A DNA stretch of 64,000 nucleotides, taken from positions 10,235,001 through 10,299,000 of the forward strand of contig OY997596.1 in the NCBI GenBank assembly GCA_963921825.1. Direction: 5' to 3'. The notes under the pieces were generated by a model. It saw nothing but the letters and a program-made list of their open reading frames with translations. It was not told the origin of the DNA and made no database searches. The translations under genes and the position numbers were made by a program. This DNA comes from Erodium maritimum. Its lineage: Eukaryota > Streptophyta > Magnoliopsida > Geraniales > Geraniaceae. Shown here piece after piece: positions 1 to 36,716 of this stretch. The first letter of the stretch is position 1; each line of letters starts with the position of its first letter.

Positions 1-415
1 ATTCTAATTTTCCGTCAACCAAAACGTCATGATCATGGTGGTTTTTTTATCCGTAAACTAGAATGCCTAGATATTCAAAACAGTAGTTTGTGTTGTACGA
101 TATTTAGCAACATATAATATTTGTTTCTTCTCAAACAATATATAAAATCTCCTCCATGACAAACTCTCAAACTAGGTGTGCAATATCCGCAAACTAACTT
201 GCTTATTTCCGCAAAACTTAAATAATCTACTTTGCCTGTTACTATATACTACTGCTTGTGTATCAATTTGAGTATATTATAACTATCTGATTCTATGTGT
301 GCTGTATATGCAATCAAAAATTATTACATCCTCAAACTGATCCTTATTTCGATGAATATCAGCTGCAGGCACATACAGTGACTATACTGCAGAATCAGAT
401 CTCCAAAACACTGTT
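1..415. other. Non-coding 5' flank of the transposase gene
   Basis: AT-rich sequence with no convincing gene. It carries CGCAAA-type units on the plus strand, with starts at 166 (CTCAAA), 188 and 210 spaced exactly 22 bp apart, and looser variants further left (near 51 and 130). The transposase reading frame is closed by a TGA just before about 356, so an upstream exon, if any, would have to be spliced in. No terminal inverted repeat could be identified here. Confidence 0.5.
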
Positions 416-1995
416 ATGTTTTCTGCTGGAGGAACCAGGATATACTTGCCATCCTGCCAGCCTGAACGAACCCCGTTTGTAGGAAAGGAATTCAAGACAC
501 TTAATAAGGCGATATATTTCTACCAAAATTACGCTAGACTTTCTGGATTCACTACAAGAAGGTCTACCGAGAAGAAGGATAAAACAAACAACATAAAGCT
601 AAAGTACATGGTATGCTCCAAACAGGGTGAGATCCCCGAACAAAACAGTCCTCAAATTTCAAAGCCTACAAAAAAGAGGAACAGATTGCTCACAAGAATT
701 AATTGTGAGGCAATGATAAGGTTCACATTTGTTTCGGAGGAATTGGGATACAAAGTATCAAAATTTGTTGAAGGTCATAACCACCCTATGGTTGGAGCGG
801 AGCACAGACATGAGATGAGAGGTAACCGACACATGGAAGGCAACCATGTTGAGTATATGAACTTTTGCGAGAGATCGGGAATAGGTCCCTCAAAGGCACA
901 CAGACTAATCAGTGAAACACGCGGAGGCCCCAGCCATGTTGGAGCTTTGAAGCAAGATTTCTACAACTACCACAGGGACTTGAAAGCCTATATTGGAGGA
1001 AGTGATGTTCAGATAATCCTTGACCAGTTCCGTGACAAGAAGGTAGCCAACAACAAGTTCTACAATGAGTACAATGTTGACCCAAGCGGAAGCCTCACTA
1101 AACTATTCTGGTGTGATGAAATAGCTATCAAGAATTATGAGCTTTACGGAGATAATGTTTCCTTTGACACAACTTACAGGACTAACCAGTAAGTATAACT
1201 CGTATTCGCTAATCCATTGAAAAAGAAATTTTGAACATTATTCTTTATTAACGATTGATGTTTTGTAGGTACTCGATGCCATTTTGTCCGTTTACAGGAG
1301 TAGACAACTATGACAAATCTGTGACTTTTGGGCTGGGACTGGTAACACATGAGGATATCGAGTCTTTCACTTGGATGTTTAACGCTTTTCTGAAAGCGAT
1401 GAATGGGAAGCAACCAATGTATCTTGTCACGCCCCAATTTCAGCGAACCGAACTCGGGACGCGAACTTTTAAAAACATGAACACTTGAAACCTGTTTTCA
1501 ATAAAAGCTTTGACATTTCCATTTACTTCTCAAAATAATAGTATTTACAATACAAAAACGTCCCAACAAGTGGACAAGGTACAACATCCGTCACTAGACT
1601 CAACAAAAGTAAAGACCAGACTCCGCTCCAAGCTCCATGAACTTCAAGAGCTAACCTAGTCCGTCCGGTGATCAGTACCTGTAGGAAAAGAAGCTAGGGG
1701 TGAGCGTTCGCTCACCTCCACGGATAACAAACTGACTATGGCATAATTAGCAGAAAAAGCCAGTAACACTAAAACCAAACCCAACGCCGGGACTACAGTC
1801 CCCAACTCAAGTACTCAACTGACCCACAACCCGTCACCTTCCTCAACAGACTCGACACTCGATAAAAACAGTGTAGACCCGACACAACTATCGACGACCT
1901 CCTCAAGGACTCGAACGAAACGACACAACACCAAACAAGATCACAAAGGATCGCACACCAGCTGCTCAGTAACCAATCTCAATCAGGTCAGGGTT

Positions 1996-2290
1996 CGACC
2001 TATCGCAATTCCTCGACACGAAGTCGGATCAGGCTGTCGACCTTTCAAACTCGCAATTCCTCGACACTAAGTCGGATCAGGCTGTCGACCTTTAAAACTC
2101 GCAATTCATCGACACTAAGTCGGATCAGGCTGTCGACCTTTAGAACTCGCAATTCATCGACACTAAGTCGGATCAGGCTGTCGACCTTTAAAACTCGCAA
2201 TTCATCGACACTAAGTCGGATCAGGCTGTCGACCTTTAGAACTCGCAATTCATCGACACTAAGTCGGATCAGGCTGTCGACCTTTAGAAC
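1996..2290 (+). repeat. 48-bp tandem repeat inside solo LTR A
   Basis: Six copies of a 48-bp unit. The anchor GTCGGATCAGG occurs at 2023, 2071, 2119, 2167, 2215 and 2263, exactly 48 bp apart. Units differ by a few substitutions. The repetitive antisense reading frame over this stretch is a by-product of the period being a multiple of three. Confidence 0.93.
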
Positions 2291-2424
2291 TCACCACCCC
2301 AGGTAACCACAATCACAATCACAGGCAAGTTCAATCACACAGGCACTCAAGGCCACTCAAGACACCTCAACAGTCAAGACTCGGGTTCAACAACCCCACG
2401 GGCACTCGCTGCCACTCAAGACAC

Positions 2425-2585
2425 CAAATTAAATAAACGGCTCTCATGGCCACCCCGACTCAACAATTAAATACGGGCTCTCAAGGCCACCCAAGCTCAA
2501 CAATTAAATACGGGCTCTCAAGGCCACCCAAACTCAACAATTAAATACGGGCTCTCAAGGCCACCCAAACTCAACAATTAAATAA
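2425..2585 (+). repeat. 37-bp tandem repeat inside solo LTR A
   Basis: About four copies of a roughly 37-bp unit containing GGGCTCTCAAGGCCACCCAA followed by ctcaacaattaaatac. The same unit is found in LTR C (10080-10410) and, inverted, in LTR B (7715-7900), where copy numbers differ. Confidence 0.88.
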
Positions 2586-5500
2586 AATGCACGACAACCT
2601 CCGGCATACTCGATGCCTCCAACGGTCCTAAAATCACTAGTTTCACAAACAACCTCCGGGCATGGTCATATGCCTCCAGTAATTCAATTATCGCTAAGTT
2701 CTCTGTTCCTACGACACTACTAAGTGTCACATGCTTTTCTCTTGAACGCTACAATCCCGTATCATGCTTTTCTAATAATTAAATAAATCTACTCAACCCA
2801 CGACACCCCGGTGTCACATGCAATTCTACTATTAACTTTCCCTAATCAGGGCCGAGATCCGGCTACTTTTCCCTACCTCGTATACAATCCCAAAAGCGCT
2901 CCAACAACACCCGAAGCACACTCAGTCACTCGCCGAGCTTCCCCTTGCCTCGGTCCGTAGCACGATCTAAAAGAACACAAATTTAAAGTACTTTTAAACT
3001 AGTACGAATAAACCAAAAATTTACATACTTAACGCCCAAACGTAACCCCGACAATGTCGGTCACTCCCAAACTTCCCAATTATTCGATATTGCCGAAAAA
3101 GGACCCGTAAGGGCCAGATTCGCCCGACATGGCGAATCTGTCCGGTTTTGGTTAATTGCCTTCCGGGGCTCCAAAAGCCCCCGTTTTCGTTTCTACGGTC
3201 TTAAAATAAATCAAGGAACTCAACGCACTTGACGGAATCGAATTCCGACTTCTAAATCAATTAATTAACGTTTAAAGTTTCCCAAAACCCGTTAATTACA
3301 ACTTCTCCAAATTAATTCCAAATTTCGATTCGATTAGGAATAAGTGGTCCGGGGGACGTTTTAAACCACCCGAACATTAAAACCCGAGCAATCGAGCACG
3401 TGGGCCCCACCCAAGAGGCTTGGCCAAGACCCTAGGGTTTGAGGGAGGGCCTCGGCCACCAAGTGGTGGCTGCTGCCACCTCCGGCCAGCCACCACATGG
3501 CCGGCCGGCCACCACCCACGGTGGCCGGAGCTCCTCCCGAGCCTCCGGTCACCGGAAAACGTGAAATTAAACCCCCAAACACCTCTAAAACGTCTCCAAC
3601 ACCTCCCCACACTCTACACAACCCTAAGCCTTAGTTTATAACCAAACCCTAGCTCTTGAAAATAATCAAAACGAGAATCGGTTCGGGTATTACCGTAGAG
3701 GAGAACGAGGGGAACGGGATTGCTCTTTGCTTTGACTCGATCCAAGGGCTCGATCACAAACCCTAGCTCAACCTCCCTTCTTCTCTCTTCTTCTCCTTCT
3801 CCTTCTCTCTCTAAAACCTCTCTTCTAATTTCTAATTTAATTAAACTAACAACAAAACTAATTTTCCTCCTTTAAAACCTCATACTCGGCCAACTATTCC
3901 CATCCACCCATTTTCCCTCCAAAAATTACACCACCATATAATTGACAAGTGTCAAGGTGGGTCCCTCACCTTTTGGAAAATATCTACTTGATATTTTCCA
4001 ATCAGATTCGCGAAAAACAGACGTTTCAGGCCCCGAACGGGCACTTTTCCCAAGAAATTTTTAAACTGGACGGGCTTCAAGGAAACGGCCCAACTAAGAC
4101 CGCTACGACGACGGCTAAGCTTTTCGGGTCCAAAACGGTCCTCGAATGGACCAAAACGTCGCTCGGGTGACTTTTCCAGCGAAAAAATCAATCTTTCCCA
4201 AAATGACCAGAAAGTTTCCCTGAGTCCCCCGTAACTCATTTTAGTCGATAACGGGGTCAACTTAAGTCCGGCATGACCCTCGGGGTCAATTTAAGTTAAG
4301 TTAAGTGTCTGTCTTAAAAAAATTTAAATTCTCCTGTTTTTCGCAGGTTTGACTGACGTTGACCAGAAGTGGTTATTACATATCTGGTGACAGATCAAGA
4401 CCCAGCAATGAAAGTTGAAATACCGAAAATCATGACAGAGACTAAGCACAAACTCTGCATGTGGCACATTACGAATAAGATTCGTCTTTCAGTCTCTATA
4501 AGAAAATCATATACTCTGTATCCACATCTTGTAATGCTTGTTTACACAAAACGTTTTATTCTTAATATGGTTCTCATAGTTAACTACTATGCGATGAGTT
4601 TATATCTATTCTCAAACTGTTATGTCTGTTTTCTCAATCTATGAACACAAAATATCCATACGCCACAGTATTGTCAATTTCTATTATTTATTTGTTCGAC
4701 TTTACAAATCTTATGAAAAATGTTACAGGTGCCTGTAAGTATAACAAATGATACAGACTTTGAGAAAAGGTTGGATTCCATAGTATACAACAACTTTATT
4801 GGCCCTGATGAGTTTGATGAAGAGTGGGCTAGCATCATTGAAGACTTCAATTTGCGAGACAACACTTGGCTCAATGGCATATTCGATCTGCGACACAGTT
4901 GGATCCCAGCATACCATAGGGATTTCCCAATGGGGTTGTTTATGAGAACAACATCAAGGTCTGAATCAGCCAACCGAGCCTATCAACAACTCACAGATCA
5001 GTACCTAAACCTTGTTCACTTGATCTGGCGGTGTGGAGTGGTGATAGAGAACCAAAGGAGTGAGCATTTCAGTCTTATGATGCACAGCTACAATTCATAT
5101 CCGGTGCTGAAGACAAACACGTGGTTTGAAGCGGATGCTTGGACGGTATACACACACACTATGTTTGCTGACATACAAAAGCATATAGTTTACGCTCTCA
5201 ACCGCTGCAGCTTGCCAGGCATGGATGACACCATTGTCTATAAAGTCAGGAATTCGTCGATTATTAAAGATGGTAAGGAATTCAGGGTGACTTGGACGAT
5301 GAGTACAAACAACTTTGAGTGCAATTGCAACAAGCTTCTAACAACGGGCTATATATGTTCTCACATATTCTTTGCGCTGCAAAACACAACGTTAAGGAAT
5401 ATTCCTAGGACGCTGGTAAACCCGAGATGGTGTAAAGACACAAACTTGACAACTACATTGTCTTCTAATGGTGTTGCACCTGAAGGTCCTACTCTGAAGG

Positions 5501-5913
5501 ACGATGAAGTTATGGATGCAGTGAAAACCAGGTTTACTGAAATGATTGGGACAGAAGATGCAGCAATTTCAAGTATTCGAGGATTGTTGGACACTTTAAA
5601 TCGATACAGAGTTAAGACGGTGGATGACATAGTGAATGAGAATAGACTCAATAGAACAAGTTTCATAGCATCGGTGACAGGGATCAAATTACCAGAAATA
5701 GTCACTGTCCAGCCACCAAATATCACAAACACCAAGGGCTCTCGCTTGCGATCTGGGAGTAGAATGATCAAAAATAAAGAAAAGGCAATCAATGCTAGTA
5801 ACAAGCGAAAGCGGCTATGCGCCACATGCCGCACATTGCAAGACCATGACAAAAGGAACTGCCCTCTGAATGTGAATAAGAAGAAGAAGAAGAATAATAA
5901 TAAGAAGAAGTAG

Positions 5914-6006
5914 AAATGATGTATATTTTCATCTGCGGATTTCGTTGTTACAGTTTGCGAATATAGACAATAAGTTTTGCGAATAAATAAATGATGTTTG
6001 ATGATA
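5914..6006. repeat. 3' flank of transposase with inverted CGCAAA units
   Basis: The TTTGCG form (reverse of CGCAAA) ends at 5937 (as TCTGCG), 5959 and 5981, exactly 22 bp apart. The array therefore continues downstream of the transposase stop codon, in the opposite orientation to the array at 166-215. Confidence 0.75.
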
Positions 6007-7714
6007 CATTTTGTAATAACCACTCCCGGTCAACGCTAGTCAAACCTGCGAAAAACGGGAAAATTTAAAAAATTTAAGACAGACATTTAATTGAACCTAG
6101 AATTGACCCCGAGGGTCATATCGGACTTAAGTTGACCCCGATATCGACCAAAGTGAGTTCCGGGGGACTCAGGGCAACTTTCTGATCAATTTGGGAAATG
6201 TTGACTTTTCGTTGGAAAAGTCAACCGAGCGACGTTTTGGTCCATTCGAGGGCTGTTTTGGATCCAAAAAGATTATCCGTCATCGCAGCGGTCTTAGTTG
6301 AGCCGTTTCCTTGTAGCCCGTCAAGTTTCGTAATTTCTTGAGAAAAGTGCCCGTTCGGGGCCCGAAACAGCCGAATTTCGCGAATCTGATTGGAAAATAT
6401 CTAGGAGATATTTTTTCCAAAAAGGTGTGGGACCCACTTGCCACATGTCAACTATGTGGTGGTGTTAGGTTTATTGGACAAAACAAATGAAGAGACATTA
6501 GTGTTAGTTTGTAAATAAAGAAGAATTGATGTTAGTTTGGTAAATATGGAAAGATGGTGTATTTTTAAACAAAGAAAAGGGGATGGCAGAGTATGTGTTC
6601 GGCAATTGTTCAAAAAATAGAAAAAAAAAGAGAAGTTTAGAGAGAGAAAAGAAGAGAGAAGGAGGAGAGAAAAAGAGAAGGTGTGTTGGGGTTTTGCCAC
6701 TATTCCCGACGATCAAACCGTTGGATCGTCTCAACGATCGAAGAATCGAGCTCCCGTCATCATTCCCTACGGTGAGCACCTATCCGATTTTCGTTTTGGT
6801 ACGTTTGAATTTTAGGGTTTGAGTTTAAACGGTTTGATTAAGGTTGGGTTTTGTTTAAGATTGGTTTAAAGATGAATGGTTGAGGTTTGTGGTTCGTTAG
6901 GAACGTTTTGGGGTGAAAAGGAAATTTTCCTAATTGTGGGCGGGTGGGGCCCACATGCCCGAGTATCGGTTTTTCGTGTTCGGGTGGTTTAGGACGATCC
7001 CCAAGTAGTTAATCCACACCCGGATCGAAATTTGGAATTAAAATGCGAAAGTTGTATTTATCGGGTTTAGAAACTTTAAACGTTAAATTAATTGACTCGG
7101 AAGTCGGAATTCGATTCCGTCAAGTGCATTGGGACCCTTGAATTATTCTAAGACCGTAGAAACGAAAACGGGAATTTTTGGAGCCCTGGAAGGGTATTTA
7201 CAAAACCCGGGCAGATTCGCCATGTCGGGCGAATCGGGCCTTTACGGGTCCTTTATCGACAATGTCGAGTAATTGGGAAGTTTGGGAGTGATCGACATTG
7301 TCGGGGTTACGTTTGGGCGTTAAGTTTATCGAATTTCAGTTTATTCCTGCAAGTTTAAAATGCGTTAAAAATTGTGTTCTTTTAGATCGTGCCACGGACC
7401 GAGGCAAGGGAAAGTTGGGTGAGTGACTGAGATCATCACCCGAGCTTATTGGTTGGCTTTTGGAGAACACGCACGAGGTAGGGAAAAGTAGCCGGATCTC
7501 GGCCCTGACTGGGGAAAGTTAACAGTAGAATTGCATGTGACACCGGGGTGTCGTGGGTTGAGTAGGTTTATTTAAATATTAGAAAAGCATGATACGGGAT
7601 TGTAGCGAATATTGGAAATGCATGTGACACTTAGTAGTGTCGTAGGAGCAGAGAACTTAGCGTCATTAGAATTACTGGAGGCATATGACCATGCCCGAAG
7701 GTTGACTGTTTAAT

Positions 7715-8350
7715 TTACGTCTTGGGTGGCCATGAGGGCCCGTGTTATTATTGTTGAGTTTGGGTGGCCATGAGAGCCCGTGTTATTATTGTTGAGTTTG
7801 GGTGGCCATGAGAGCCCGTGTTATTATTGTTGTGTTTGGGTGGCCATGAGAGCCCGTGTTATTATTGTTGAGTCTTGGGTGGCCGTGAGAGCCCGTGGTA
7901 GTATTATTGGTGTTTTGGGTGGTCGTGAGTGCCCGTGGGGTTGTGAACCCATACTTTACCGTTGGTGTCTTGGGTGTCCATGAGGGCCCGTTGGGTTGTT
8001 GAACCCGTGTTACTTTAGTATTGGTGTCTTGGGTGACCGTGAGTGCCGTTGGGTTGTTGAACCCGTGTTGCTTTATTGCTGGTGTCTTGAGTGACCGTGA
8101 GTGCCGTGGGGTTGTTGAGCCCGTGAGTTACTGTTGGTGTGTCTTGAGTGGCCGTGAGTGCCGTGGGGTTGTTGAGCCCGTGAGTTACTGTTGGTGCGTC
8201 TTGGGTGGCCGTGAGTGTCGTGGGGTTGTTGAGCCCGTGAGTTACTGTTGGTGTGTCTTGGGAGGCCGTGAGTGCCCGTGGGGTCGTTGAGCCCGTGAGT
8301 TACTGTTGGTGTGTCTTGGGTGGCCGTGAGTGCCCGTGAATGGTTTGGGG
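7715..8350 (-). repeat. Expanded tandem repeats in LTR B
   Basis: The left part (about 7715-7900) has roughly 37-bp units containing GGGTGGCCATGAGAGCCCGT. The right part (about 7900-8350) has longer units of about 60 bp built on GGCCGTGAGTGCC, GGGGTTGTTGAGCCCGTGAG and TTACTGTTGGTGT. The open frames here are repeat artefacts. Confidence 0.88.
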
Positions 8351-8485
8351 TTGTTGAGTCCATGTTTTACTGTTGGTGTCTTATGTGGTCATGAGTGCCT
8401 GTGGAGTGTTGAACTGGTCTTGTTACTGGTTGTTGAACTTGCTTGTGATTGTGATTGTGATTGTGCTTGTGATTGTGGTTGCGGA

Positions 8486-8715
8486 TCCCGGTAGGTTGCA
8501 AGCATTCTTTGGCTGGCCTGACCAAGTTTGAGTATCAACAGGTTGCAAGCATTCTTTGGCTGGCCTGACACAGTTTGAGTATCAACAGGTTGCAAGCATT
8601 CTTTGGCTGGCCTGACACAGTTTGAGTATCAACAGGTTGCAAGCATTCTTTGGCTGGCCTGGTCCGAGTTTGAGTATCACAGGTTGTAAGCATTCTTTGG
8701 CTAGCCTGATCCGTG
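8486..8715 (-). repeat. About 48-bp tandem repeat in LTR B
   Basis: Four to five copies of a unit containing GGTTGCAAGCATTCTTTGGC followed by tggcctgacacagtttgag. It corresponds to the inverted arrays at 1996-2290 in A and 9640-9870 in C, although the unit sequence has drifted between copies. Confidence 0.85.
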
Positions 8716-9639
8716 TTCCTGTGAGTGGGAGAGGTTACTGAGCTGGTATGCGATCCTTTGTGATCTTGTTTGGTGTTGCGTAGCTTTCGTTTGAGTCCTT
8801 GGAAGAGGTCGTGATCGTTGAGTCGGGTCTACTTTACGTGTCAGGGTGTCGAGTTGGTCAAGGAAGGTAATTGTGGGTGTGTGTTCAGTCGGAGTACTTG
8901 GGTTGGGGACAGTGATCCCCGGGGTTGAGTTTGTTGTGGGTGTTACCGACTGTCACACCCCAATTTCAGTAAACCGAACTAGGGACGCGAACGTTTTAAA
9001 AACATAGAAACACTTGAAACCTGTTTTCATTAACTCACTTTAAAATACCAGTTTAGTTCAACAAAATAATATTTACAGCTTAAAATACGTCCCAACACGT
9101 GGACAAAAGTACAAGGTATCCGTCACTAGACTCAAAAGACAAAACCCGGACTCCGCTCCTAGCTCCACAAGCTTCGAGAGCTCACCTAGTCCGTCCCACG
9201 AACAGTACCTGTAGGAAAAGCAGCTAGGGGTGAGCGTTCGCTCACCACCACAGATAACAGACTGACTACGGCATAATTAGCAGACAATGCCGGTAACACC
9301 AATAATAAAGTCAACACCGGGGGACACTGTCCCAACCCAAGGACTCTGACTGAACATACACCCACTGTTACCTTCCTTGACCAACTCAACACTTTGACAC
9401 GTAAAGTAGACCCGACACAACCATTGACGACCTCTTCCAAGGACTCAAAAGAAAGTTACGCAACACCAAACAGCATCACAAGGGATTACACCCCAAACAA
9501 GATCACGAAGGATCGCACACCAAACAAGATCACAAAGGATCGCAAACCAGCTGCCAAGAACCTCCCTCATCAGACTCAACCTCAAACTCGTAAAGTAAAA
9601 CCGACACAACAAACAATGACGACCTTCCCCAAAGACACG

Positions 9640-9870
9640 AACACGGATCAGGCTAGCCGAAGATGCTCAGAACCTGCCAAGCCTCGTACGCGGTCAGGCC
9701 AGCCGAAGAATGCTCGTAACCTGCCGGGACCCGGTCACGGATCAGGCTAGCCAAAGAATGCTCATAACCTTTCGGGATCCGAACACGGAACAGGCTAGCC
9801 GAAGAATGCTCAGAACCTGTCGAGGCTCGAGTTTGGTCAGGCCAGCCAAAGAATGCTCGTAACCTGCCAA
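9640..9870 (+). repeat. About 48-bp degenerate tandem repeat in LTR C
   Basis: Roughly five copies of a unit containing CAGGCTAGCCGAAGAATGCT followed by cagaacctg. It is the counterpart of the 48-bp arrays in A and B. Confidence 0.8.
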
Positions 9871-10079
9871 AATCCACACCACTCCCCGACACACAGTCGG
9901 GTCGGGCAAACACAACCAAAAACACAAGCATGTTCAACAAACAGGCACTCAAGGCCACTCAAGACACCTCAACAGTCAAGACTCGGGTTCAACAACCCCA
10001 CGGGCCATCATGGCCTCCCAAAACACAACCACTTAACTCACGGGCTCAACAACCCCAAGACACCAATAATAACACACGG

Positions 10080-10410
10080 GCTCTCATGGCCACCCAAACT
10101 CAACAGCAAACACAAGGGCTCTCATGGCCACCCAAACTCAACAATAAATAACACGGGCTCTCAAGGCCACCCAAACTCAACAATAAATAACACGGCTCTC
10201 AAGGCCCCCCAAACTCGACGATAAATAACACGGACTCTCAAGGCCACCCAAACTCAACAACAATTAACACGGGCTCTCAAGGCCACCCAACTCAACAACA
10301 ATTAACACGGCTCTCAAGGCCACCCAAGACTCAACAACAATTAACACGGCTCTCAAGGCCACCCAAGACTCAACAATAATAAAACGGGCTCTCAAGGCCA
10401 CCCAAACACC
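10080..10410 (+). repeat. 37-45 bp tandem repeat in LTR C
   Basis: Eight or so copies of a unit with GGGCTCTCAAGGCCACCCAA and a variable AT-rich spacer (caacaataaataacac). It is more expanded here than in LTR A. Confidence 0.87.
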
Positions 10411-12732
10411 AAAAGATCAAACAACCTCCGGCTTAACCAAAGCCTCCAACAGTCCTAATATCAACAGTTTCTCAAACAACCTCCGGGCATAGTCATATGC
10501 CTCCAGTACTCCTAATATCGATAAGTTCACAAACAACCTCCGGGCATGGTCATATGCCTCCAGTAAAACTACTACGCTAAGTTCTCTGCTCCTACGACAC
10601 TACTAAGTGTCACATGCTTTTCCAACAATTACTAAGTTCCCGTGACATGCATTTCTAATATTCGCTACGTTCCCGTATCATGCTTTTCTAATATTTGAAT
10701 AAACCTACTCAACCCACGACACCCCGGTGTCACATGCAAATCTATTGTTAACTTTCCCCAGTCAGGGCCGAGATCCGGCTACTTTTCCCTACCTCGTGCG
10801 TGTTCTCCAAAAGCCAACCAACGAGCTCCGGTGTGATCTCAGTCACTCACCCAGCTTTCCCTTGCCTCGGTCCGCGGCACGATCTAAAAGAACACAATTT
10901 TAAACGATTTTAAGCTTGCAGGCATAATGCTGAATTTTAATAAACCTGACGCCCAAAAGTAACCCCGACAATGTCGATCACTCCCAAACTCCCTAATTAC
11001 TCAACATTGTCGATATTGGACCCGAAAAGGCCCGATTCGCCCAACACGGCGAATCTGCCCGGGTTTTGGAAACGCCCTTCCGGGGCTCCGAAAATTCTCG
11101 TTTTCGTTTCTACGCTCTTAGAATAATTCAAGGGTTCCTAAGAACTCGACGGAATCGCTTTCCGACTTCCGAGTAATTTAATTCGCGTTTAAAGTTTCTA
11201 ACCACAATTTCCGAATTCTCCCGAATTACAAACCCTAATTCTCTATTCCTCAATACAAAAAGGGAAATTCCAAGACTAATCAAATTTGTAGTGAATTTCC
11301 CAAATTCAAACCAATAAGCACATAATAGTCTTTGAAAAAAACGAAATAAAATAAAACCCAACTCTCAAGAATTACCACAACACCGGCGTCACTTCTTTGT
11401 GAAGATGACAAAACTTTCAATGCTTCACTATATGAGCAATCAATGCTCCAGCAACCAAGAACTTAGAAAAGAATTTAAAAAAAGGGAATAAAGAAGCTCA
11501 AACACTTCACGGTTTGCTTAATATCCCTTTCCTCTTTTCTTTTTTTGTTTTTCTCTGCTAACCCCACAACACAATAAAATCAACAACTCTAACCTTGTTT
11601 GCTCGGTTGACTTCGAGATCACAGCCACCAACCAAGTGACTCCTTTATTGTCTCTTCCTTGAAATATGATGACCCTTTATTGCTCCATCAATTGATTTTG
11701 TATCAAAACAATCAAAACCTCCTCTGTCCAAAACTGAAGCCGTCCCATCCTTCAAGCCAAAGCCTATGCTCACTTCCCTTTTGTCCAAACAGATCAAGCC
11801 GCCACACTGAAGAAGCCAAAGAACCAAAACTTTGGTTTCTCTGTACACGACCATCCACTTCAAGATGCTGCCGCCCCTCTCTTTTGTTCTTTCCAAAATG
11901 TCACCCAAAACCCTAATGTTTCCACTATTTGTACCCAAAACCTAACACCACCACATATTTGACATGTGGCAAGTGGGTCCCACTTATTTTGGAAAAATAG
12001 CTTCTAGATATTTTTTCAGTCAGATTCGCGAAATTTGGCCGTCTCGGGCCCCGAACGGGCACTTTTTCCAAGAAATTACGAAACTTCACGGGCTACAAGG
12101 AAACGGCTCAACTAAGACCGCTGCGACAACGGCTAAGCTTTTCGGATCCCAAACGGTCCTCGAATGGACCAAAACGTCGCTCGGTTGAATTTTCCACCGA
12201 AAAGTCAACATTTCCCAAATTGGTCAGAAAGTTGCCCTGAGTCCCCCGGAACTCACTTTGGTTCAACTTAAGTCCGGTATGACCCTCGGGGTCCAATTCT
12301 GGTTCAATACAGTGTCTGCTCAAAAATTTTAAATTTTCCTGTTTTTCGCAGGTTTGACTGGCGTTGACCGGGAGTGATTATTACACCGACATTGTCTGCT
12401 AGTTATGTCGTAGTCAGTCTATTATCTGTGGTGGTGAGCGAACGCTCACCCCTAGCTACTTTTCCTACAGGTACTGATCACAGGACGGACTAGGTGAGCT
12501 CTCGAAGCTTGTGGAGCTAGGAGCGGAGTCCGGGTTTTTATCTTTTGAGTCTAGTGACGGATACCTTGTACTTTTGTCCACGTGTTGGGACATATTTTTA
12601 AGTTGTAAATATTATTTTGATTAATTAAATGGAGATTTTAAAGTGTTTATCCAAAACAGGTTTCATTGTTTTATTGTTTTAAAATGTTCGCGTCCCGAGT
12701 TCGGTTCACTGAAAATGGGGCGTGACACATTT

Positions 12733-13217
12733 ATTTGAGTTTTCCGAATTAATAAATTTCGTTTCTGCACATGTTTAGATTTATATGAAATTTAATATAA
12801 TATATTGTACACACATAACGCAAGACAAGGACACAAGGACCTGCCCCGCTGAGTAAAAATAGGAAGAAGAAGTGGACTGATGGAGATTATCGATTGCGGA
12901 TTTGGCTTTTTCTGTTTGCGGATATAGGTCATCTGTTTTGCGGATTCAATATGACAAATTGTTTGCTAATATTTCAAATTTCGTTTACTAAAAAATATAT
13001 AATGATTTGAGAATTTAATACTTTCGTTTTGCGTACGAAAGGGAAGTGAAACGGTTTGTGGTAGACCAATCAACTAATGACAGCTTCGAAACGTGGGTGA
13101 GAATTAATTGCTCCACTAACCCACGATGCCCTACATGTTCCACTATATATACCCAAATAGAGTATCCTTTTATACTTAACCCTCAACTCTTCGAATACCC
13201 AATTTTACTCTGAAAAA
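12733..13217. other. Non-coding stretch upstream of small gene 1
   Basis: The sequence resumes from the 3' flank of the transposase after LTR B. From 12893 to 12995 it carries inverted CGCAAA units (TTTGCG-type, ending at 12898, 12920, 12942 and, in weaker form, 12967 and 12989). A TATA box follows at 13144. The segment 13022-13217 is duplicated at 13831-14029 ahead of small gene 2. Confidence 0.65.
13144..13151 (+). promoter_or_regulatory. TATA box of small gene 1
   Basis: TATATATA, 67 bp upstream of the ATG at 13218. The same box lies at an equivalent distance upstream of small gene 2. Confidence 0.6.
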
Positions 13218-13535
13218 ATGGCATCGTCAAGCAGCAGGAAGCGTAAAAGCTATGAAGATGAACTCGACGAACGCGAAAGGAAGCTGAAGGAGCAGAACAA
13301 GAAGGACAGAAAACAAAAGCGTCTAATCAAACACGAGAAGTTCGTGACGAGCTTCAAGGAAATCAAGCACAAGCTTTCTGAGATCGAGCTTGTGCTTCAA
13401 ATATTGGCCTCGGATGTTGGCGAGGAGCTGTGCACTGACATGAGCACCGAAGAGGTGCTTGCAAACACAGCCTTCACCAGGAAGATAACCGAAGTGATCA
13501 TAGTTGTGAACAAGGCTATGAAACTGGTGGTATAG
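13218..13535 (+). CDS. Small basic coiled-coil protein, family 1 copy a (105 aa)
   Basis: An unrecognised protein of 105 residues. The N-terminus is Ser- and basic-rich (MASSSSRKRK, NLS-like). It is followed by a strongly charged helix (residues about 12-40, E/K/R-rich with KEQNKKDRKQKR) and a second predicted helical part (41-105) with heptad-like Leu/Ile/Val spacing and one Cys. It shares about 76% identity, by my count, with the protein from 14030. A TATA box 67 bp upstream and the conserved leader (ccaattttactctg before the ATG) support the start and real transcription. It sits inside the MULE between transposase and the Ulp1-like gene, flanked on both sides by CGCAAA arrays. The function is unknown. 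A DNA-binding or accessory role for the element is only an inference from charge, position and duplication. Confidence 0.72.
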   Translation: MASSSSRKRKSYEDELDERERKLKEQNKKDRKQKRLIKHEKFVTSFKEIKHKLSEIELVLQILASDVGEELCTDMSTEEVLANTAFTRKITEVIIVVNKAMKLVV

Positions 13536-14029
13536 GGATAGCAAACCATATTCTCTTCATTCCTTTTGTCTGTTCTTAACCAGTTTAAAGTAATTAAAAA
13601 AATCGTTTTCCTTAAAATAGTTTATATTTCACTTTCGATTATATATAATTCCGTTATTTATGTTACACGCGAAACAGATTATTAGAATCAGCAAACCATG
13701 ATCTCTGTATCCGCAAACCAGAATCTATGTTTTCACAAACTTCCGTCCTTAATTATAGTCGCGAAACATAATAAAAGTATCCGCAAACTACAAGATCGTA
13801 TACGCAAACACCAAGTAAAGAGAATATACAACTTCGTTTTTGCGTACAAAAAGGAAAGTGGACCGGTATGTGGTAGACCAATCAAATATTGACAGCGTGG
13901 AAACGTGTAGGAGAATTAATTGCTCCACTAACCTACGATGCCCTAGATATTCCCCTATATATACCAAATACTGTATCCTTCTATACTCATCCCTCAACTC
14001 TTCCTATAACCAATTTTACTCTGGAAAAA
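13536..14029. other. Spacer between small genes 1 and 2: array then duplicated promoter
   Basis: The 3' flank of gene 1 is followed by plus-strand units at 13690, 13712, 13734, near 13761, 13782 and 13803. Then comes the duplicated promoter block 13831-14029. The duplicated block and the gene behind it show that a unit of about 0.8 kb was tandemly copied. Confidence 0.65.
13956..13963 (+). promoter_or_regulatory. TATA box of small gene 2
   Basis: TATATATA, 74 bp upstream of the ATG at 14030, in sequence homologous to the promoter of small gene 1. Confidence 0.58.
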
Positions 14030-14347
14030 ATGTCGTCCTCAAGCAGCAGGAAGCGTAGAAGTTATGAAGATGAATTCGACGAACGCGAAAGGAAGCTGAA
14101 GGAGCAGAACAAGAAGGACAGAAAACAAAAGCGTCTCATCAAGCATGAAGAGTTTTTGATGAAGTTCAAGGCAATAGGGCGTCAGCTTTCTGACATTGAG
14201 CTTGAGCTTGAAATTTTGGGTATGGAAGTAGGCGAACAGCTGTGCACTGACATGAGCTCCGAAGAAGCGCTTGCAAACTCAGCCCTGAACAAGAAGATAA
14301 CCGAAGTGATCATTGCGGTGAACAAAGCTATGAAACTAGTGGTATAG
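14030..14347 (+). CDS. Small basic coiled-coil protein, family 1 copy b (105 aa)
   Basis: A tandem paralogue of the 13218 gene, also 105 residues. The helix core KEQNKKDRKQKRLIKHE and the C-terminus NKAMKLVV are identical, and about 25 scattered substitutions lie mostly in the middle. I chose the ATG at 14030, although the frame is open back to 13889, because it aligns with the start of copy a and follows the same leader (ccaattttactctgg). There are no stops or gaps, and protein length is kept exactly, so the pair has diverged mainly by substitutions. No known family is recognised; a nuclear DNA- or chromatin-binding role is possible from the RKRR-type start. Confidence 0.72.
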   Translation: MSSSSSRKRRSYEDEFDERERKLKEQNKKDRKQKRLIKHEEFLMKFKAIGRQLSDIELELEILGMEVGEQLCTDMSSEEALANSALNKKITEVIIAVNKAMKLVV

Positions 14348-15052
14348 GCATAGCAAACCCTAGTCTCTTTTGTTTCCCTTTATCTGTTCTTAACCAAATC
14401 TTATTAATCAATAACAAAATCTTTTTCCTTAAATACGTTTATATTTCGCTTTCAAGTTATGTATGATTCCATGATTTGTGTTACACGCGAAACAGAATAT
14501 AAGTATCAACAAACCATGATATCTGTATCCGCAAACCAGAATCTCTGTATTAGAAACTTTAAGTCAATAAAAATAGGCATAATAATAGGCAAATTTACAA
14601 TATTAGCAAACCAGTATATATGAATCCGCAAACTACAAGTCCGTATCCGCAAAAAACATGTTAAAGAAAAAAAATATCAGTATTAGCAAAACAGGATCTC
14701 TGTATCCGCAAACTACAAGGCCATATATGGCCATTATACCCATCATCGTCTTCCTCCACATTTTCTTTATCCTCCTCTTTCTCATCATCGTCATCGTCAC
14801 TGATGATAATAGGGCAATCCTCTTTCTATTATGGTGACATGACATAATTAAAAATAGGTCTATGATGACATGATTTGTAGGGTTAAAAAATTGATTTAAA
14901 CTTAACCAAACAGCGGTGAAAAGACATAACAACGCATTAAATGAGATAAGATCTTGGTGCATTCAAGGAGGATTTTAGTAATGATGTACTGTAACCGTGG
15001 TAACTTAACCGTCAGATTTTGAAATCATACCATCTGATTTTGGGGAACGATT

Positions 15053-15346: not shown

Positions 15347-15694
15347 ATGGCCTCCAACAGGAAACGCACCAGATCTCAAGGTAACGTCTGCACCGAAGAA
15401 GCTGTGGAACGTACCATTGAGGAACGTTCTAAGAAGATGCGTGAGATGGAGCAAGCGGCTATGGATACGACAATGGAGATTCGCAAAGTGAAGATGGCAC
15501 TAATCCAATGCCACTTTTTTCTGATGGAGGAGAAGGTGGAAAACCTTATCCATGATCTGGAAGTGCTTGACATGAGGAACGACAATGCAAAGCTTAACGA
15601 AGATAGAGACAAGATGATGACGGCACTGAAACAGATTCAGGATTTCTTCAAAACCATGGCCATAGTAGAAGACGAAGGCACATCCGGCCCATGA
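15347..15694 (+). CDS. Small coiled-coil protein, family 2 copy a (115 aa)
   Basis: An unrecognised 115-residue protein. It starts MASNRKRTRS (basic, NLS-like). A long charged helix follows (residues about 17-105: E/K/R-rich, with Met/Leu/Ile at heptad-like spacing), then a short acidic tail ending EGTSGP. The MAS-x-RKR start resembles the two family-1 proteins, but I cannot align the remainder with them. A homologous gene follows at 16519. A TATA box, a conserved G-box and a conserved 5' leader (aacttcaaaccaccag before the ATG) support expression and the start. The gene is inside the MULE, and its 3' side carries a CGCAAA array. Function unknown. Confidence 0.72.
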   Translation: MASNRKRTRSQGNVCTEEAVERTIEERSKKMREMEQAAMDTTMEIRKVKMALIQCHFFLMEEKVENLIHDLEVLDMRNDNAKLNEDRDKMMTALKQIQDFFKTMAIVEDEGTSGP

Positions 15695-16420: not shown

Positions 16421-16428
16421 TATAAATA
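16421..16428 (+). promoter_or_regulatory. TATA box of small gene 4
   Basis: TATAAATA followed by cccccac, 98 bp upstream of the ATG at 16519. Confidence 0.62.
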
Positions 16429-16518
16429 CCCCCACCTCTATATCACTGAACCCTACAACTCTCTTTCAATTTAAAATTCTCTTCTCAAATAACTTCAAAC
16501 CACCAGTCTGCAAAAGCG

Positions 16519-16836
16519 ATGGCCTCAAACAGGAAACGCACCAAAGGGGAAGGAAACGTTTGCAACGCAGAAGCTATGGAACGTACCAGAGAGGAAGCCG
16601 CTTTGGAGTCTAAAATACAGTTACGCAAAATAAGGTTGGCACTATGCCAGATCCACTTTTTGCTGATGCAGGAGAAGGTGAAAAGCCTTGCCAATGAACT
16701 GCAAGTGCTTGACATGAGCAACTTGACTGAAAAGCACAAGGAAGATAGGGACAAGATGATGGCGACACTGAAAAAGATTCAGGACTTCTTCAAAACAATT
16801 GAGGTAGACATGGAGCAGGGCACATCCGACCCATGA
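16519..16836 (+). CDS. Small coiled-coil protein, family 2 copy b (105 aa)
   Basis: A tandem paralogue of the 15347 gene, 105 residues. It shares the MASNRKRT start, the central QEKV/EEKV helix, the EDRDKMMATLKKIQDFF-type motif and the GTSDP end. Copy a has a 10-residue longer N-terminal helix, so the two differ by an in-frame indel. The frame is intact. Both copies keep an acidic C-terminus and a basic N-terminus. No homologous family is recognised. Its place between transposase and the Ulp1-like gene suggests an element-encoded accessory factor, which is inference. Confidence 0.7.
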   Translation: MASNRKRTKGEGNVCNAEAMERTREEAALESKIQLRKIRLALCQIHFLLMQEKVKSLANELQVLDMSNLTEKHKEDRDKMMATLKKIQDFFKTIEVDMEQGTSDP

Positions 16837-16971
16837 AGGATGTAGTTATATTTTCCCTATTATCATGTCAATCGTCTTTTTAGGTTTTTGTATTTTGTTT
16901 TGAAAACTTAGTTTCTCAGTGAATGTATGACTAGTATCTGCTTATCAATATGAAAGTCACCTACATTTAAC

Positions 16972-17340
16972 TCGCAAACGATATTGCATAATCTGAAACA
17001 AGGAACCCCACTTTCTCAAACCAAGGATTGAAAATTCGCAAAACAGAAAAACAGTTCCGCAAACTAGACACTGTATATTCGCAAAACAGAAAACACATTA
17101 CCTCAAAAAACAGAGGAACCCCAGTTTCGCAAACCAAGGATTGCCTCTTCGCAAAACAGAAAAACAATACCCGCAAACTAGACACTATACATTCGCAAAA
17201 CAGAAAACACATAACCTCAACCAACAACTTGTTTATCCTACAATACAACATATTCAGAAACAAAAGATCTTATAAATTCTGAAAATAGTACACAGATTAT
17301 TCTCAAACAATATATCATAAATTCTCAAACAAAAAAAATT
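16972..17340 (+). repeat. 22-bp-phased CGCAAA array downstream of small gene 4
   Basis: CGCAAA starts at 17037, 17058, 17080, 17128, 17150, 17172 and 17194. CTCAA-type variants at 17102 and 17216 fill the phase, giving a spacing of 21-22 bp with one 26-bp jump. Between cores the sequence varies, alternating cgcaaaacagaaa and cgcaaactagaca forms. Confidence 0.88.
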
Positions 17341-18098
17341 GTCGTTTCTGAAAAAAAACACCAGTAATCAAAAAGACTAAGCTTTATGACGTTCGCATGG
17401 TAATAAGGCTTTATACTTGACACTAAATTTGAATGTGGTCTTCTTCTTTTTGAAATAATCTTTGATATTCTCCTCAATTCCTAGCCACAGGTTGTTCTTC
17501 TCAAATGCGATCAACTTAAAGAGGAATCTTTTCCTCAATAACTCGATTTGTGCAGCCTACAAAATCAAAATTTAAAGATCAAATCTATACGCATTGCTAT
17601 ATACTGACAAAGAAATAATTGTTGGTTTAACTTACATCATTAACGTTCAATTCTCCTGCCCAATTCCCATTGCCAAGATACGATTCCATGTGCCACATAG
17701 CATACACCCCACAATCCATATGATTGTCGTTAGATTCCCATGGTACATGTAACCGATCAATCTTACCGTTGAAAATTTTCTGAGCTAGAGCTTTATTAGT
17801 TTTTGATATGAACTTGCAAATTTTAGACCTCTACGCAAATCAAAAACACCAAAGAAAAATAAATAAAAACAGAAATGAATAGATAGACAGTAATCAAACA
17901 CATACTCAATGAGAAAAGAATACGTACTAATGTATAGTGAATTTTTTCATAACGAACATCATCATCAACCGTTCCTTTCACATTGTCAATAATAATTGAA
18001 TTTCCATTCTTCATATCGATGCATAACAGTGTGAAGTGATTGCTCTTAAAAGCAACTATGAAAACTTGTAGAAAATATATAAAATGCATCAGCATATC

Positions 18099-18322
18099 AG
18101 CAAAACACATATTCACTATCAGCAAACTACATTTTCATTATCAGCAACACATAGAAACTGTTTCTCAAACCAGGGTGCGCATATCCGCAAAACATGTATT
18201 CAGTTTCCGCAAACTTGATAGAAAATATTCGCAAACAAGAAAATCCATACCCTCAAACCAGATATTGCGTGACTCAAACAGGTAAACGTTATTCCTCAAG
18301 CAATGGTGCGTATAGACGCAAA
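18099..18322 (+). repeat. 22-bp-phased array in intron 6 of the Ulp1-like gene
   Basis: Units start at 18099, 18121, 18143, 18164, 18186, 18208, 18230, 18252, 18273, 18295 and 18317: eleven consecutive units 21-22 bp apart. Cores are CGCAAA or the variants AGCAAA, CTCAAA, AGCAAC. The exons to either side lack the motif. Confidence 0.9.
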
Positions 18323-20407
18323 ACATACAAACCTTACCTGCAACCAACATATTGAATATTCTAAAACCAACCATGTATTATACTTACCAAGTCCAACTTC
18401 TTCCATGAAAAAGAATGGAACTCCTTAGTTTCAAATTTGAAAATTTCGTCAAAAGCTACATCTTTTTTATGTGCCGAAAGCGTAGCCTACAAAATAAAAA
18501 TATTAATAACAAAAACATATTAAAATAATTCAAACTATAAACGTAATCAACAAAAAAATTGCGCAAACTATCCTTACACTAAGAGTAGCTGAAAAGAAGA
18601 ACCGGTTAGGTGATGAATCACTCTTGATAGTTTCCAGATGATTCAGATAGTGACACCACCCATTAACGGTTTCTAGTTCAATTCATGCATCCTTTTTGAA
18701 AGAAATAAAGCCCCCCTTGGTAATATAATTTTCAGAGCACTGAAACATAAAAGCCCTGCATTCACAGAGAGAAAAAGCCTATTCACTGTATTTGCAAAAA
18801 TAAAATATGAAAACAAAATAAGGGGAAAAACATATTTTACTTACCAGTCCTCGGTTTTGCTTTTATTCAGCACTCAATCAGCAACACAATCCTCAACCTC
18901 TAGAATATCGGACCAATAATCTGTTTGACGATCAACGTACGGAGAACACCGAAATTTAGACGGTGCAATCAAACGAGGTAAAGGTTGTTTGTCTGGGGTT
19001 TCCCTTAATAAAGATGCCTTAATACATCCAATTGACGTAAAACTATTGCCACTTGCAGCAGGTTTCTTAACAACAGGGGGATTTTTCTTAACACCACCTT
19101 GAACTTTTTTTGCTACAACAGTACGGGGTACTTTCTTCTCGGGGACAGCAGTGGGGCCTTTCTTACCGGGTGCACGAGCGAGAGCTCTCTTCTTCGGTGG
19201 ATCAATAATTGAGCCAGGCTCCACATGACCAACACCATCAGTCGACTTCTTAGGAGGATGCATGAGCCCTTTTTTATCAGGAAGAGGTATGCCAGCAGGG
19301 CGTTGTACTATGGATTCACGCAATATTGTCATTGCAAGTTCAGGATTCTCGTCGACTGTCTCAGAGACCTCTTTCCCACCAATAGAACGATTGATATTTT
19401 GGTCAACCCGTGCAGTAACAATTGGCGGGGGTTGAGTCTTGCAAGCTTGATTAACAGGTGGATCATTGTTGACATTTTTTTCGACAACAATTATATTGAG
19501 TGGCTCGGGTTGCTCTTGAAGTGTCTGAAAAAAGTCATTGACAGACGGAGACCCGTTGACATTTCCTTGTCTGCATTCTATAGTAAGTGGGTCAAATTCC
19601 ACTACAAGAGCCCAACAATCATCTTTGTTAACAACATCGGGAGCTTCACATTCCGTGATTGGATTATCAACAACCATGTCACAAGCTTGCTTCCCAATAC
19701 CATAAGCAACAGAAATAGCGTCAAACTCATCGCCAACACTGTTATTCTTTTCTGGCTCAGTTTATTCTGCAACAATATTATCCACAGGGGCTGCATCATT
19801 ACTTGCGAACAATTTCCGTACCACATTATCGCATTCAGGGCTTGACAATGTAGTGGATCCAGCAGGGCATGGAGAAAGAACATTGGCAGGCGATTTTTGG
19901 GATGGTGAAAGAAGTCTAAATGATGGTGGAGTAACGGCACGAGCAGGTGGCTTCTCTCCTCCTTTGTACCCTTCCCCAACGCGTGTTGCTGCTTCAATCA
20001 ATTTCTCAATGGTCTCAATAACCCCGGGTAGATTAAACCATGAGTCTTGTGACAGCAACACACTTTGTGTGTCAGGCATGGCCTCTTCGGGATTTTTTTT
20101 CCCGGTCAAACCATCAAACAGGGTGGACATTGTCTTGAAACACTCAGTATTGGGATCAGCGATGTGCCCTTCAACCAACAACTGATGCCATTCCAAAAAA
20201 CCTTATGCAACCTTATTCCCTGCTATTCGAAACCTTTCTGCAATCCTCTGAATACGATAAAAAGAAGCATGTTAATGTGATTAAATGCAAACAAATAAAA
20301 CACAGGGTATGCATCAACTACGAAACACATCTTCAAACCAAAATGTGCATATTTTCACACAATAAACCTAGGCACAAATCACATGCAGCAAATACTCAAA
20401 ACTGTTT

Positions 20408-20911
20408 CGCAAAACAGAGTGCGCATACTCGCAAAACAAAGAATCACTATCCGCAAACTAGGTAAAGCATACACGCAAAACATAAATTCACAATCCGCAA
20501 ACAGGGTAAGCATATTCGCAAAACATATATTCACAATCCGCAGACTAGGTAAAGCATATTAGCAAAAAGGTCAATCAATAACAGAGAATGCATCAACTAA
20601 AACACACATCTACAGACCAAAATGAGCATATTTTAAAACTGTTCCTACCAGAGTACGCACTATCGCAAAACATACAATCACTATCCGCAAACTATTAAAA
20701 CCATACTAGCGAAGCAAAAATTCACTATCCGCAAACTAGGTAAAGCATATTCGCAAAACATATATTCACTATCCGCAAAACACAATATCACTAAACGAAG
20801 AACATATATTCACTATTCACAGAACATATATTCACTGTTCGCATAACATAAATTCACTATCTGCAAACCAGGTAAAGCATATTCGCAGAACATATGTTTA
20901 CTATCCGCAAA
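20408..20911 (+). repeat. 22-bp-phased array in intron 3 of the Ulp1-like gene
   Basis: First block: units at 20408, 20430, 20452, 20474, 20496, 20517, 20539 and 20561. Second block: 20664, 20686, 20708, 20730, 20752, 20774, 20796, 20818, 20840, 20862, 20884 and 20906, all exactly 22 bp apart. Intact CGCAAA cores alternate with degraded ones (CGCAGA, CACAGA, CGCATA, TGCAAA) that remain in phase. Frequent unit texts are CGCAAAACATA and CGCAAACTAGG. Confidence 0.93.
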
Positions 20912-22353
20912 AAAAAAACAAGTCAATCAATAAACGTAACTGTACATTTGAAAAACATAATTCCCCCACAAAAAAATTAATTAAATAATAGAATACCTCT
21001 GCAGAACCCCTTTCACTATGAAAATGGGGAGTATTCGGGGCCGGCGGATCTCCACCATTTCTATCACCACTTTCATTATTCCTATTTACATTAGGTGGTG
21101 GATGTTGAGCAACATTATCTTCCTCCCTAACACGGGGAGTACCCTCCCTCCGTATGTGACTCATTCCAAATGACTCACACTGTAATTCATCACCGACTCT
21201 TCTGTTCACCAATGCAGTATTCCATCCAATCAAAGACGGTCACGCCCTAGGAACCTCACACGTGCTGACTTCAACACGATCAAGATAAAACAACTGCATC
21301 ATTGAAAGGAAAAGACATGTCACATGAATATACCATAAGAGTTTATTAAATATAAAATACAACACATTAAAATGAAAAATAAAACTTACCAACAAGAGAG
21401 TTATTGATCCAGAAAAACTCTTTGAACCTTCGGGTTGATTTAACCAGATTTTTTTTGTATCCACAAGTTTCTTGACTAAAAACTTGCACCAATTAAAGTC
21501 TTGTATGTGAGATACATCAACAATAGAACGGAAGCATGACTAATTCACATAACCCTCATTCCCAGAATCGATCATGCAAGTCACAAACAACATCATGAAG
21601 TTTCTTTTGAAATCATCTCCCCCTTGAAGTTGCTTCTTCATCTGATCAACCAACTGCTTACTGGTGATAAGATGCTTGATCTCGCCTTTGTCTTTTGTAT
21701 CGAACTGTCGCTGCCACAATTTAAGTTCATCACTACACAGGGTGGCCAACTTATCGACTATGGCGTCGCGCACACCATTTGGGATGCCCAAAGTTTCATG
21801 CACTTCATTCTCTGTGATACGCAATTTGGCATCTGGCAATTCCAATGATGAGCTAAGATGATTATACTTAGACACCAGGTAATATCCAATCTTGCTTGGA
21901 ATGATCTTCACAGCCAAATGAAGAATGTGCCCAAACCCAATTTCGCGCACTGCTTCTTGTTGGCGTTTATTCAAACTCTCCACCAACTCAACCAATCTCT
22001 TTGGAGATGACCTGGTCTTCAATATAGCATCCACGCCAACCTTATCAGATAACGGGACAACTCTATCAGACTCACAACCCTTGGTGCGCTTAACATTCTT
22101 CTTCTCAATAGCTAATTCTCCACTTCTCTTCTTTCCAGCTTTAGCAGGTCGGACAGCTAGATCGAGACATTCACGAACCTCAGCTACCTTCTTCTTCTTA
22201 ATTGAAAGTCTTTGTTTATTTTTATTCTTAATAGACTTCTGCTCCTTCAACATATTAGCAAGAGTCGTATTTCCTTCACCAACATCAGCCTCTGTGGATG
22301 GCCTATCCATTAAAAGAAGAGGTACCACTGTATCCGGAGTTTTATCTATAATT

Positions 22354-22800
22354 CGCAAACAAGGGTTAGCATTTCAGAAAAATAGACAATATACAAAAAC
22401 ATTGCATATTCACGAGAAAGAAAAACAGTGACCGCAAACAAGATACTATATATTCGCAAAATATAAATTCACTATCCGCAACTACATAAATCTAATTCGC
22501 AAAACATATATTCACTATCCGCAAACAAGGTAAAGCATATTATCAAAACAGGTCAAACAATAACAGGGTATGCATCAACTACAAAACACATCTGCAAACC
22601 AAACTGTTCATATATGCATACAATAAACATACGCACATACCAAATGCAGGATTATTCAAAACTGTTTCTCAAACAAGAGTGCGCACACTCGCAAAACATA
22701 AATTCTTTATCCGCAAATTGGGTAAAGAATAATCGCAAAACATGAATTCATTATTCGCAAAACAGAAAAACAAAGTCCGCAAAACAAGATACTCGCAACA
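22354..22800 (+). repeat. 22-bp-phased array in intron 1 of the Ulp1-like gene
   Basis: Units at 22433, 22455, 22477 (CGCAAC), 22498, 22520 and 22542 (ATCAAA), then 22690, 22712, 22734, 22756 and 22778, spaced 21-22 bp; an isolated unit lies at 22354. The intervening 22560-22680 is degraded. Confidence 0.9.
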
Positions 22801-36700: not shown

Positions 36701-36716
36701 TTATCGGAATTGTGGA

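Follow-up and report, generated by a model that had tools for sequence, protein, structure and literature searches.

A 22-bp phased CGCAAA array in the non-coding DNA of a FAR1-type Mutator-like element of Erodium maritimum: possible docking sites for an element-encoded protein

Known self-acting transposons and the Erodium element

TnpA, a protein of the Spm transposon, binds a repeated short motif at subterminal sites. The present analysis concerns an array of the motif CGCAAA, with a pitch of 22 bp, in the non-coding DNA of a Mutator-like element (MULE) of Erodium maritimum, much of which lies in a 64-kb window (C9:10235001-10299000 of the 763-Mb assembly; the window is the whole stretch that was analysed). 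TnpA of Spm and MURA of MuDR are described as lowering the methylation of their own elements (PMC10398659), and VANC21 of Arabidopsis binds short, dense motifs of one orientation in introns, intergenic DNA and terminal non-coding DNA, with loss of methylation following (PMC5735166). The words spacing, periodic and helical are missing from the main text of the latter paper. The best explanation of the Erodium array, held tentatively at a probability of about 0.45 and drawn from sequence, is that a protein encoded by the transposon family would dock on it and serve self-activation.

The element resembles the VANDAL elements and their VANC proteins in being a MULE with a dense motif of one orientation in introns, intergenic DNA and terminal non-coding DNA, in having arrays that gain and lose units, and in encoding an accessory protein with a variable region of tandem peptide repeats (PMC5735166, PMC10398659, in the sections consulted). 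The differences are that terminal inverted repeats are present here, whereas they are absent or degenerate in VANDALs, that the domain DUF1985 is undetectable here, and that the pitch here is fixed at 22 bp. Judged by the features tested, the element is not a VANDAL, because it has terminal inverted repeats and no detectable DUF1985. On the favoured reading the array would probably serve self-activation or anti-silencing, as in the VANDAL/VANC system, and we infer from its anatomy that it may work as a VANC target does; the anti-silencing step is a lead taken from VANDALs and not a result. An earlier sequence-only reading of this DNA had drawn the same analogy, which stands as a good functional lead in that the motifs are short, dense, non-coding and of one orientation; binding and demethylation are conjectural here.

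Spm differs in being a CACTA element with subterminal TnpA sites, whereas the sites here are spread from -5863 to 22962 across the element. MURA, in the literature consulted, acts on terminal repeats, whereas here the sites fill introns and intergenic DNA. The likeness to both systems is that element-encoded proteins activate or hypomethylate their own elements (PMC10398659, in part). KIU/Kaonashi, an Ulp1-bearing VANC, is similar in that a second gene of a MULE ends in an Ulp1/C48-type domain (PMC13317346, in the part consulted), but here the C48 match is marginal (20.2 vs 20.7 bits), DUF1985 is undetected and there are eight extra small genes. Insertion beside (TA)n and the existence of many short derivatives, of 200-1,600 bp, recall MuTAnT elements; AutoMuTAnT, however, is 4.9 kb long with a single gene, and the sections of PMC4486113 consulted describe no 22-bp array, Ulp1-type gene or small genes. 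The Jittery clade likewise has a FAR1 domain at the transposase N-terminus, but one open reading frame is listed for that clade, against at least ten genes here (PMC6446971, in the part consulted). No report of a 22-bp CGCAAA array was recognised in the literature searched, most subscription journals lying outside the search, and no claim of absence is made.

A phased array in the non-coding DNA of the element

This FAR1-type MULE begins ~6.07 kb before the window (loci L061 and L062) and ends at 23485. A terminal inverted repeat of ~22 bp (GGNNNGCNATCAGGTGCGAACC), which holds TGCGAAC at spacings of 18-19 and 8 bp, is found at both ends and adjoins (TA)n at each; because both ends sit in (TA)n, the target site duplication (8-11 bp in MULEs) is unreadable. 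Removal of two nested insertions leaves an element of ~19.9 kb. Exon borders were set by eye, so that the split between coding and non-coding DNA is approximate. The borders, insertions and array segments are as follows.

23464..23485, minus strand: right terminal inverted repeat, beside (TA)n; its left counterpart is ~6.07 kb upstream of the window
1431..4380, no strand: nested insertion 1; missing in the 30-copy consensus; ~11-bp junction overlap; without a phased array; internal control
6012..12722, no strand: nested insertion 2; missing in the 30-copy consensus; ~10-bp junction overlap; a single CGCAAA (9541); internal control
166..215, plus strand: array segment, lying 5' to the coding exon of the transposase; two exact cores, 188 and 210
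5954..5981, minus strand: array segment; exact cores at 5954 and 5976
12915..13033, minus strand: array segment upstream of the small gene at 13218; cores at 12915, 12937 and 13028
13692..13844, plus strand: array segment; cores at 13712, 13782 and 13803, with 13839 on the minus strand
14493..14712, plus strand: array segment
15832..16069, plus strand: array segment
16973..17216, plus strand: array segment containing a 114-bp higher-order duplication
18099..18322, plus strand: intronic array segment; 4 exact cores, degraded cores in register
20408..20567, plus strand: intronic array; 6 exact cores
20664..20911, plus strand: intronic array; twelve 22-bp registers, 6 exact cores
22354..22525, plus strand: array segment; upstream of the Ulp1-type gene's main first exon
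22690..22967, plus strand: array segment; 5 exact cores 22 bp apart, followed by a single core at 22962

The window contains 58 copies of CGCAAA and 11 of its complement TTTGCG. Non-coding DNA of the element holds 87 sites per 12,061 bp, 73 of them CGCAAA on the plus strand, versus 6 per 7,835 bp of its coding sequence, 1 per 9,661 bp of the nested insertions and 4 per 50,443 bp outside the element. A Markov-1 model predicts 7.9 ± 2.4 non-coding sites, with a maximum of 14 in 100 simulations that used slightly different boundaries. The sites continue to the left of the window, so that they extend over 29 kb (-5863 to 22962), and the full element is free of them over its outermost ~200 bp on the left and ~520 bp on the right. 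The near confinement to non-coding DNA, for which the nested insertions serve as an internal control, favours reading the array as binding sites.

The pitch is equally marked. In element non-coding DNA, 32 pairs on the same strand are separated by 21 or 22 bp, whereas 2000 trials with positions jittered by ±40 bp averaged 2.0 and never exceeded 9. Of the 144 pairs no more than 200 bp apart, 84 deviate by at most 1.2 bp from a multiple of 21.85 (11% expected). When all hexamers with at least three different letters were scanned over the element at lags of 12-60, CGCAAA at lag 22 ranked first (24) and CGCAAA at lag 44 second (16); the next other hexamer at lag 22 reached 8, and host and nested sequence had no comparable combination of hexamer and lag, the best host pair being 5. 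The consensus is approximately TATYCGCAAAMYA, one per 22 bp, with a stretch of ~8 bp that is nearly uninformative. The six bases 22 bp farther on from a site, which played no part in the selection, read CGCAAA once more (C 55, G 48, C 59, A 72, A 70 and A 66 of 93).

Degraded cores also keep phase, as had been claimed: among pairs of a site and a variant at most 70 bp apart, where 13% would be expected in phase, the counts are 33/43 for CTCAAA, 17/29 for AGCAAA, 8/11 for TGCAAA, 5/15 for CACAAA, 4/8 for GCGAAA and 2/7 for CGTAAA. The spacers vary freely, again as claimed, with an identity of 0.332 between adjacent units (32 pairs) that is close to the 0.321 of distant units; the random value is 0.282. 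The fixed pitch is not explained by chance or by simple recent duplication, and a row of binding sites is suggested because the spacers vary while core and pitch persist in element-specific non-coding DNA.

The sequence-only reading had described a phased array with a period near 21.8 bp, and the counts bear out both the periodicity and its length. Its figure of about 49 plus-strand CGCAAA at 13.6-23.0 kb was rightly high, the exact number being 52, and its remark that few copies lie farther downstream agrees with three CGCAAA and zero TTTGCG beyond 23.5 kb and with the low density in host sequence. The 'twelve sites' at 20664-20906 are indeed twelve 22-bp registers, of which only 6 hold exact cores, the rest being degraded in register; of the 'eleven' at 18099-18317 only 4 are exact, again with degraded cores in register. 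The runs at 5937-5981 and 12898-12942 are phased as stated and are located on the minus strand, not the plus. The array had been given as starting at 166, which needs correction: the element begins ~6 kb upstream of the window and sites continue there. Binding to 'one face' of the DNA can be only approximate, because 22 bp is ~2.1 turns and a twelve-site array winds through about one turn.

Methylation-sensitive binding through the CpG of the core had also been proposed. This is unsupported, because in-phase units that lack the CpG (CTCAAA, TGCAAA) are common. Element non-coding DNA has a ratio of observed to expected CpG of 1.09 (0.95 once the cores are removed), compared with 0.63 in element coding sequence and 0.67 outside. 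The high value would fit low methylation, an indication to be given little weight because the nested insertions also reach 0.89.

The array across the genome and in short derivatives

The genome contains 8,976 pairs of CGCAAA exactly 22 bp apart (4,640 + 4,336), versus 212 (119 + 93) for the reversed pattern. Over all spacings of 11-41 bp there are 11,899 pairs against 3,318 in the control; with the 22-bp pairs set aside 2,923 are left, which taken jointly are not above the control, and in the list of spacings lags of 18 or 40 are contributed by a few element types. The partner 22 bp upstream of CGCAAA is CGCAAA itself in 8,976 cases, TGCAAA in 1,777 and CTCAAA in 1,451.

When 100 array places were listed and assigned by eye, 68 belonged to the type of locus L018, 22 to that of L012, 7 to that of the window and 3 to none. 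The three element types have core and pitch in common and differ in their spacers, the unit consensus by type being ATcCGCAAAc.A.Aaat, AAATCCGCAAACCATATACAC and ATTTCCGCAAACCAgaTtc (89, 38 and 24 units). An ordinary satellite found outside the element family had been named as one outcome that would speak against the sequence-only reading. The terminal repeat of the family is instead present in 5/6 distinct array loci fetched by pattern, the exception, L010, being a lone pair. As far as sampled, the array is peculiar to MULEs of this group and the short elements derived from them.

Some of these derivatives are hardly more than terminal repeats and sites. This is true of L012 (~290 bp, 7 sites) and of two neighbouring elements at L005 (C1:4486000 region; ~376 and ~378 bp, with 10 and 7 sites), each of which has both terminal repeats; L018 is larger (~1.36 kb, 1,363 bp, 12 sites). 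The longest ATG-started open reading frames, the only gene check made, are 32 aa in L012, 76 and 67 aa in the L005 pair and 73 aa in L018. The window element, L018 and L005 are inserted in (TA)n, and L012 lies near (TA)n.

Genes of the element and candidate binding proteins

The element has at least ten genes, in the order, from left to right, of four small proteins, the transposase, four more small proteins and an Ulp1-type gene on the minus strand. The coding features are as follows.

L061:928-5208: four small genes left of the window, lying within this interval
416..1430, plus strand: transposase 5' exons with the FAR1 DNA-binding domain; interrupted by a nested insertion at ~1431
4729..5913, plus strand: transposase 3' exon, its start judged by eye
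13218..13535, plus strand: small gene, 105 aa; basic stretch at the N-terminus
14030..14347, plus strand: small gene, 105 aa; 76% identical to the 13218 gene; 150 scored genome matches
15347..15694, plus strand: small gene, 115 aa
16519..16836, plus strand: small gene, 105 aa
17380..18486, minus strand: C-terminal exons of the Ulp1-type gene (~17380-17560, 17640-17831, 17928-18065, 18388-18486), splice sites by eye
18845..22310, minus strand: first three exons of the Ulp1-type gene (22310-21390, 21293-20997, 20247-18845), splice sites by eye

A majority consensus of 30 copies with hand-placed splicing matches the MULE transposase domain PF10551 (E 3.2e-27), and a FAR1 domain is detected at the transposase N-terminus. 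A CxC...CxH pattern is visible by eye, and no SWIM model matched the transposase. The 3' exon has 105 scored genome matches (931 first-look candidates), 89-96% identical, excluding itself and one short fragment.

The Ulp1-type gene ends in a Peptidase_C48 match (E 5.9e-4, 20.2 bits) that is just under the Pfam cut-off of 20.7, and the His, Asp and Cys positions of its C-terminal exons were noticed by eye only. The first three exons of the window copy contain five in-frame stops. The third (18845-20247, minus strand) encodes about five basic tandem repeats of nine residues with a KK pair in each, which are kept in two divergent copies. The main exon has 148 scored genome matches (747 candidates), 73-97% identical excluding itself. 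The genome also has at least 150 DUF1985 matches above the Pfam cut-off (150 scored of 841 candidates), which correspond to many VANC- or KIU-like genes; the window Ulp1-type gene is absent from the 150 listed. Searches against solved structures returned chance-level matches only.

The sequence-only reading counted four small proteins, whereas the element has eight, four of them left of the window (88-104 aa) and four within it (105-115 aa). None of the eight (88-115 aa) has a Pfam match above the cut-off. Many intact copies of the small genes occur across the genome, and a stop is present in 4/28 copies of the first. The pair 13218/14030 has a dN/dS of 0.27, indicating purifying selection; two other pairs have 0.84 and 0.82. 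For 6/8 small genes the nearest upstream site is TTTGCG and the nearest downstream site CGCAAA; the other 2/8 have CGCAAA on both sides.

If the array is a row of docking sites, the protein molecules would sit side by side at intervals of about two turns on introns, intergenic DNA and gene flanks. Many occupied sites would then mark the element and keep its chromatin in, or switch it into, an expressible state, and the short derivatives would retain sites because they, too, have to be marked in trans. As a guess at the binder, the Ulp1/C48-type protein with its basic repeats may be given a small lead over the FAR1 domain and the eight small proteins. A more far-reaching version, which is on the doubtful side, is that MULEs without DUF1985, of a FAR1-type TA-targeting lineage, have a second, independent system of sequence-specific anti-silencing or self-activation. 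The 22-bp 'ruler' array would be an address tag that very short derivatives have in common with full elements, and its reader would be an element-encoded protein (small or Ulp1-type) that oligomerises and covers the DNA at two-turn intervals.

Two observations stand apart from these subjects. The nested insertions at 1431-4380 and 6012-12722 have related inverted stretches, with ends that start TGTCACGCCCC (by eye), and contain internal tandem repeats of 37-57 bp. Outside the element there is a 285-bp tandem repeat in four copies, at 36714-37848.

Selection, duplication and competing explanations

On selection, the comparison of copies points both ways. Four copies with an Ulp1-type exon 73-76% identical retain the motif upstream of that exon. 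In divergent copies 88/136 cores are intact, versus 25% of 2,522 other CpG-bearing hexamers.

Several results weigh against docking sites as the explanation. The divergent-copy comparison rests on 20 ordered pairs of five sequences, one of which (L074) is partly non-homologous, and the aligner favours core matches. In 30 young copies (~3.5% divergence), ten cores are conserved at 0.9647, versus 0.9649 for other non-coding positions; intact hexamers amount to 0.846 for cores and 0.826 for others, and CpGs are kept at 0.940 in cores and 0.946 elsewhere in non-coding DNA, a similar decay. This test has little power at 3.5% divergence, yet it is the cleanest one and it is negative. Some arrays, moreover, grew by duplication of 44 bp or longer. 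The VANC target motif differs between related families, whereas here a single core is found in three types and four divergent copies. Finally, Pfam gave no DUF1985 hit in the Ulp1-type protein. Homology of its N-terminus to DUF1985 looked plausible by eye and was rejected when a profile comparison with ten DUF1985 pieces from the same genome fell within the range of shuffles (score 16.0, shuffles up to 20.7, n=60; second run 15.3, shuffles up to 17.0, n=100). The sequence-only reading had likewise supposed no sequence relation to VANC.

The main rival, because the terminal-repeat GCGAAC is one base from the GCAAAC of the array, is that the array consists of transposase-binding sites, internal variants of the terminal repeat, which would assemble, enhance or titrate the transposase rather than set chromatin. 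In L012, TGCAAAC replaces the second TGCGAAC, and short elements that rely on transposase in trans retain sites. This account is nonetheless unlikely. Introns and intergenic DNA carry the sites along 29 kb, with none near the ends of the full element; their pitch is 22 rather than the 18-19 and 8 of the terminal repeat, and most left-end sites of L012 and L018 point the opposite way from the terminal motif. Recruitment of a host DNA-binding protein (a transcription factor, insulator or architectural protein) would suit the small genes, which are flanked by sites on both sides, in opposite orientation in 6/8, as regulatory elements might be. With CGCAAA rare in sampled host sequence (4 per 50 kb) and 97/100 listed array places assigned by eye to this transposon group, it must be considered distinctly improbable.

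A neutral minisatellite, in which functionless 22-bp units were spread by tandem duplication and conversion, is given similarly poor odds. Spacer identity rises to 0.47 at lag 43/44 (21 pairs), which argues that some arrays grew by 44-bp duplication; higher-order units of 44, 66 and 114 bp are found, array copy number varies among element copies, and the young copies lack core conservation, all of which speaks for this account. It is at odds with adjacent spacers that are no more alike than distant ones, with degraded cores that keep phase, with arrays that are nearly absent from coding DNA, and with a core and pitch common to types with different spacers. A bending or stiffening of the DNA by short A-tracts in phase would explain why the core ends in AAA or AAAA and why 21-22 bp is close to two turns. 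However, bending has no need of the C, G and C of the core, which are kept at +22 (55, 48 and 59 of 93); with tracts this short and a 22-bp pitch that slips out of helical phase, this account is very improbable.

Meaning for plant transposons

In the literature consulted, the sequence-specific anti-silencing described is that of Arabidopsis VANDALs. To find their anatomical hallmark in a MULE of a different type, where the pitch is rigid and no VANC domain is detectable, would point to self-marking of non-coding DNA as a strategy that recurs among plant DNA transposons. What makes docking a testable question is the 22-bp ruler, together with the thousands of array pairs in one genome and the derivatives of a few hundred bp.

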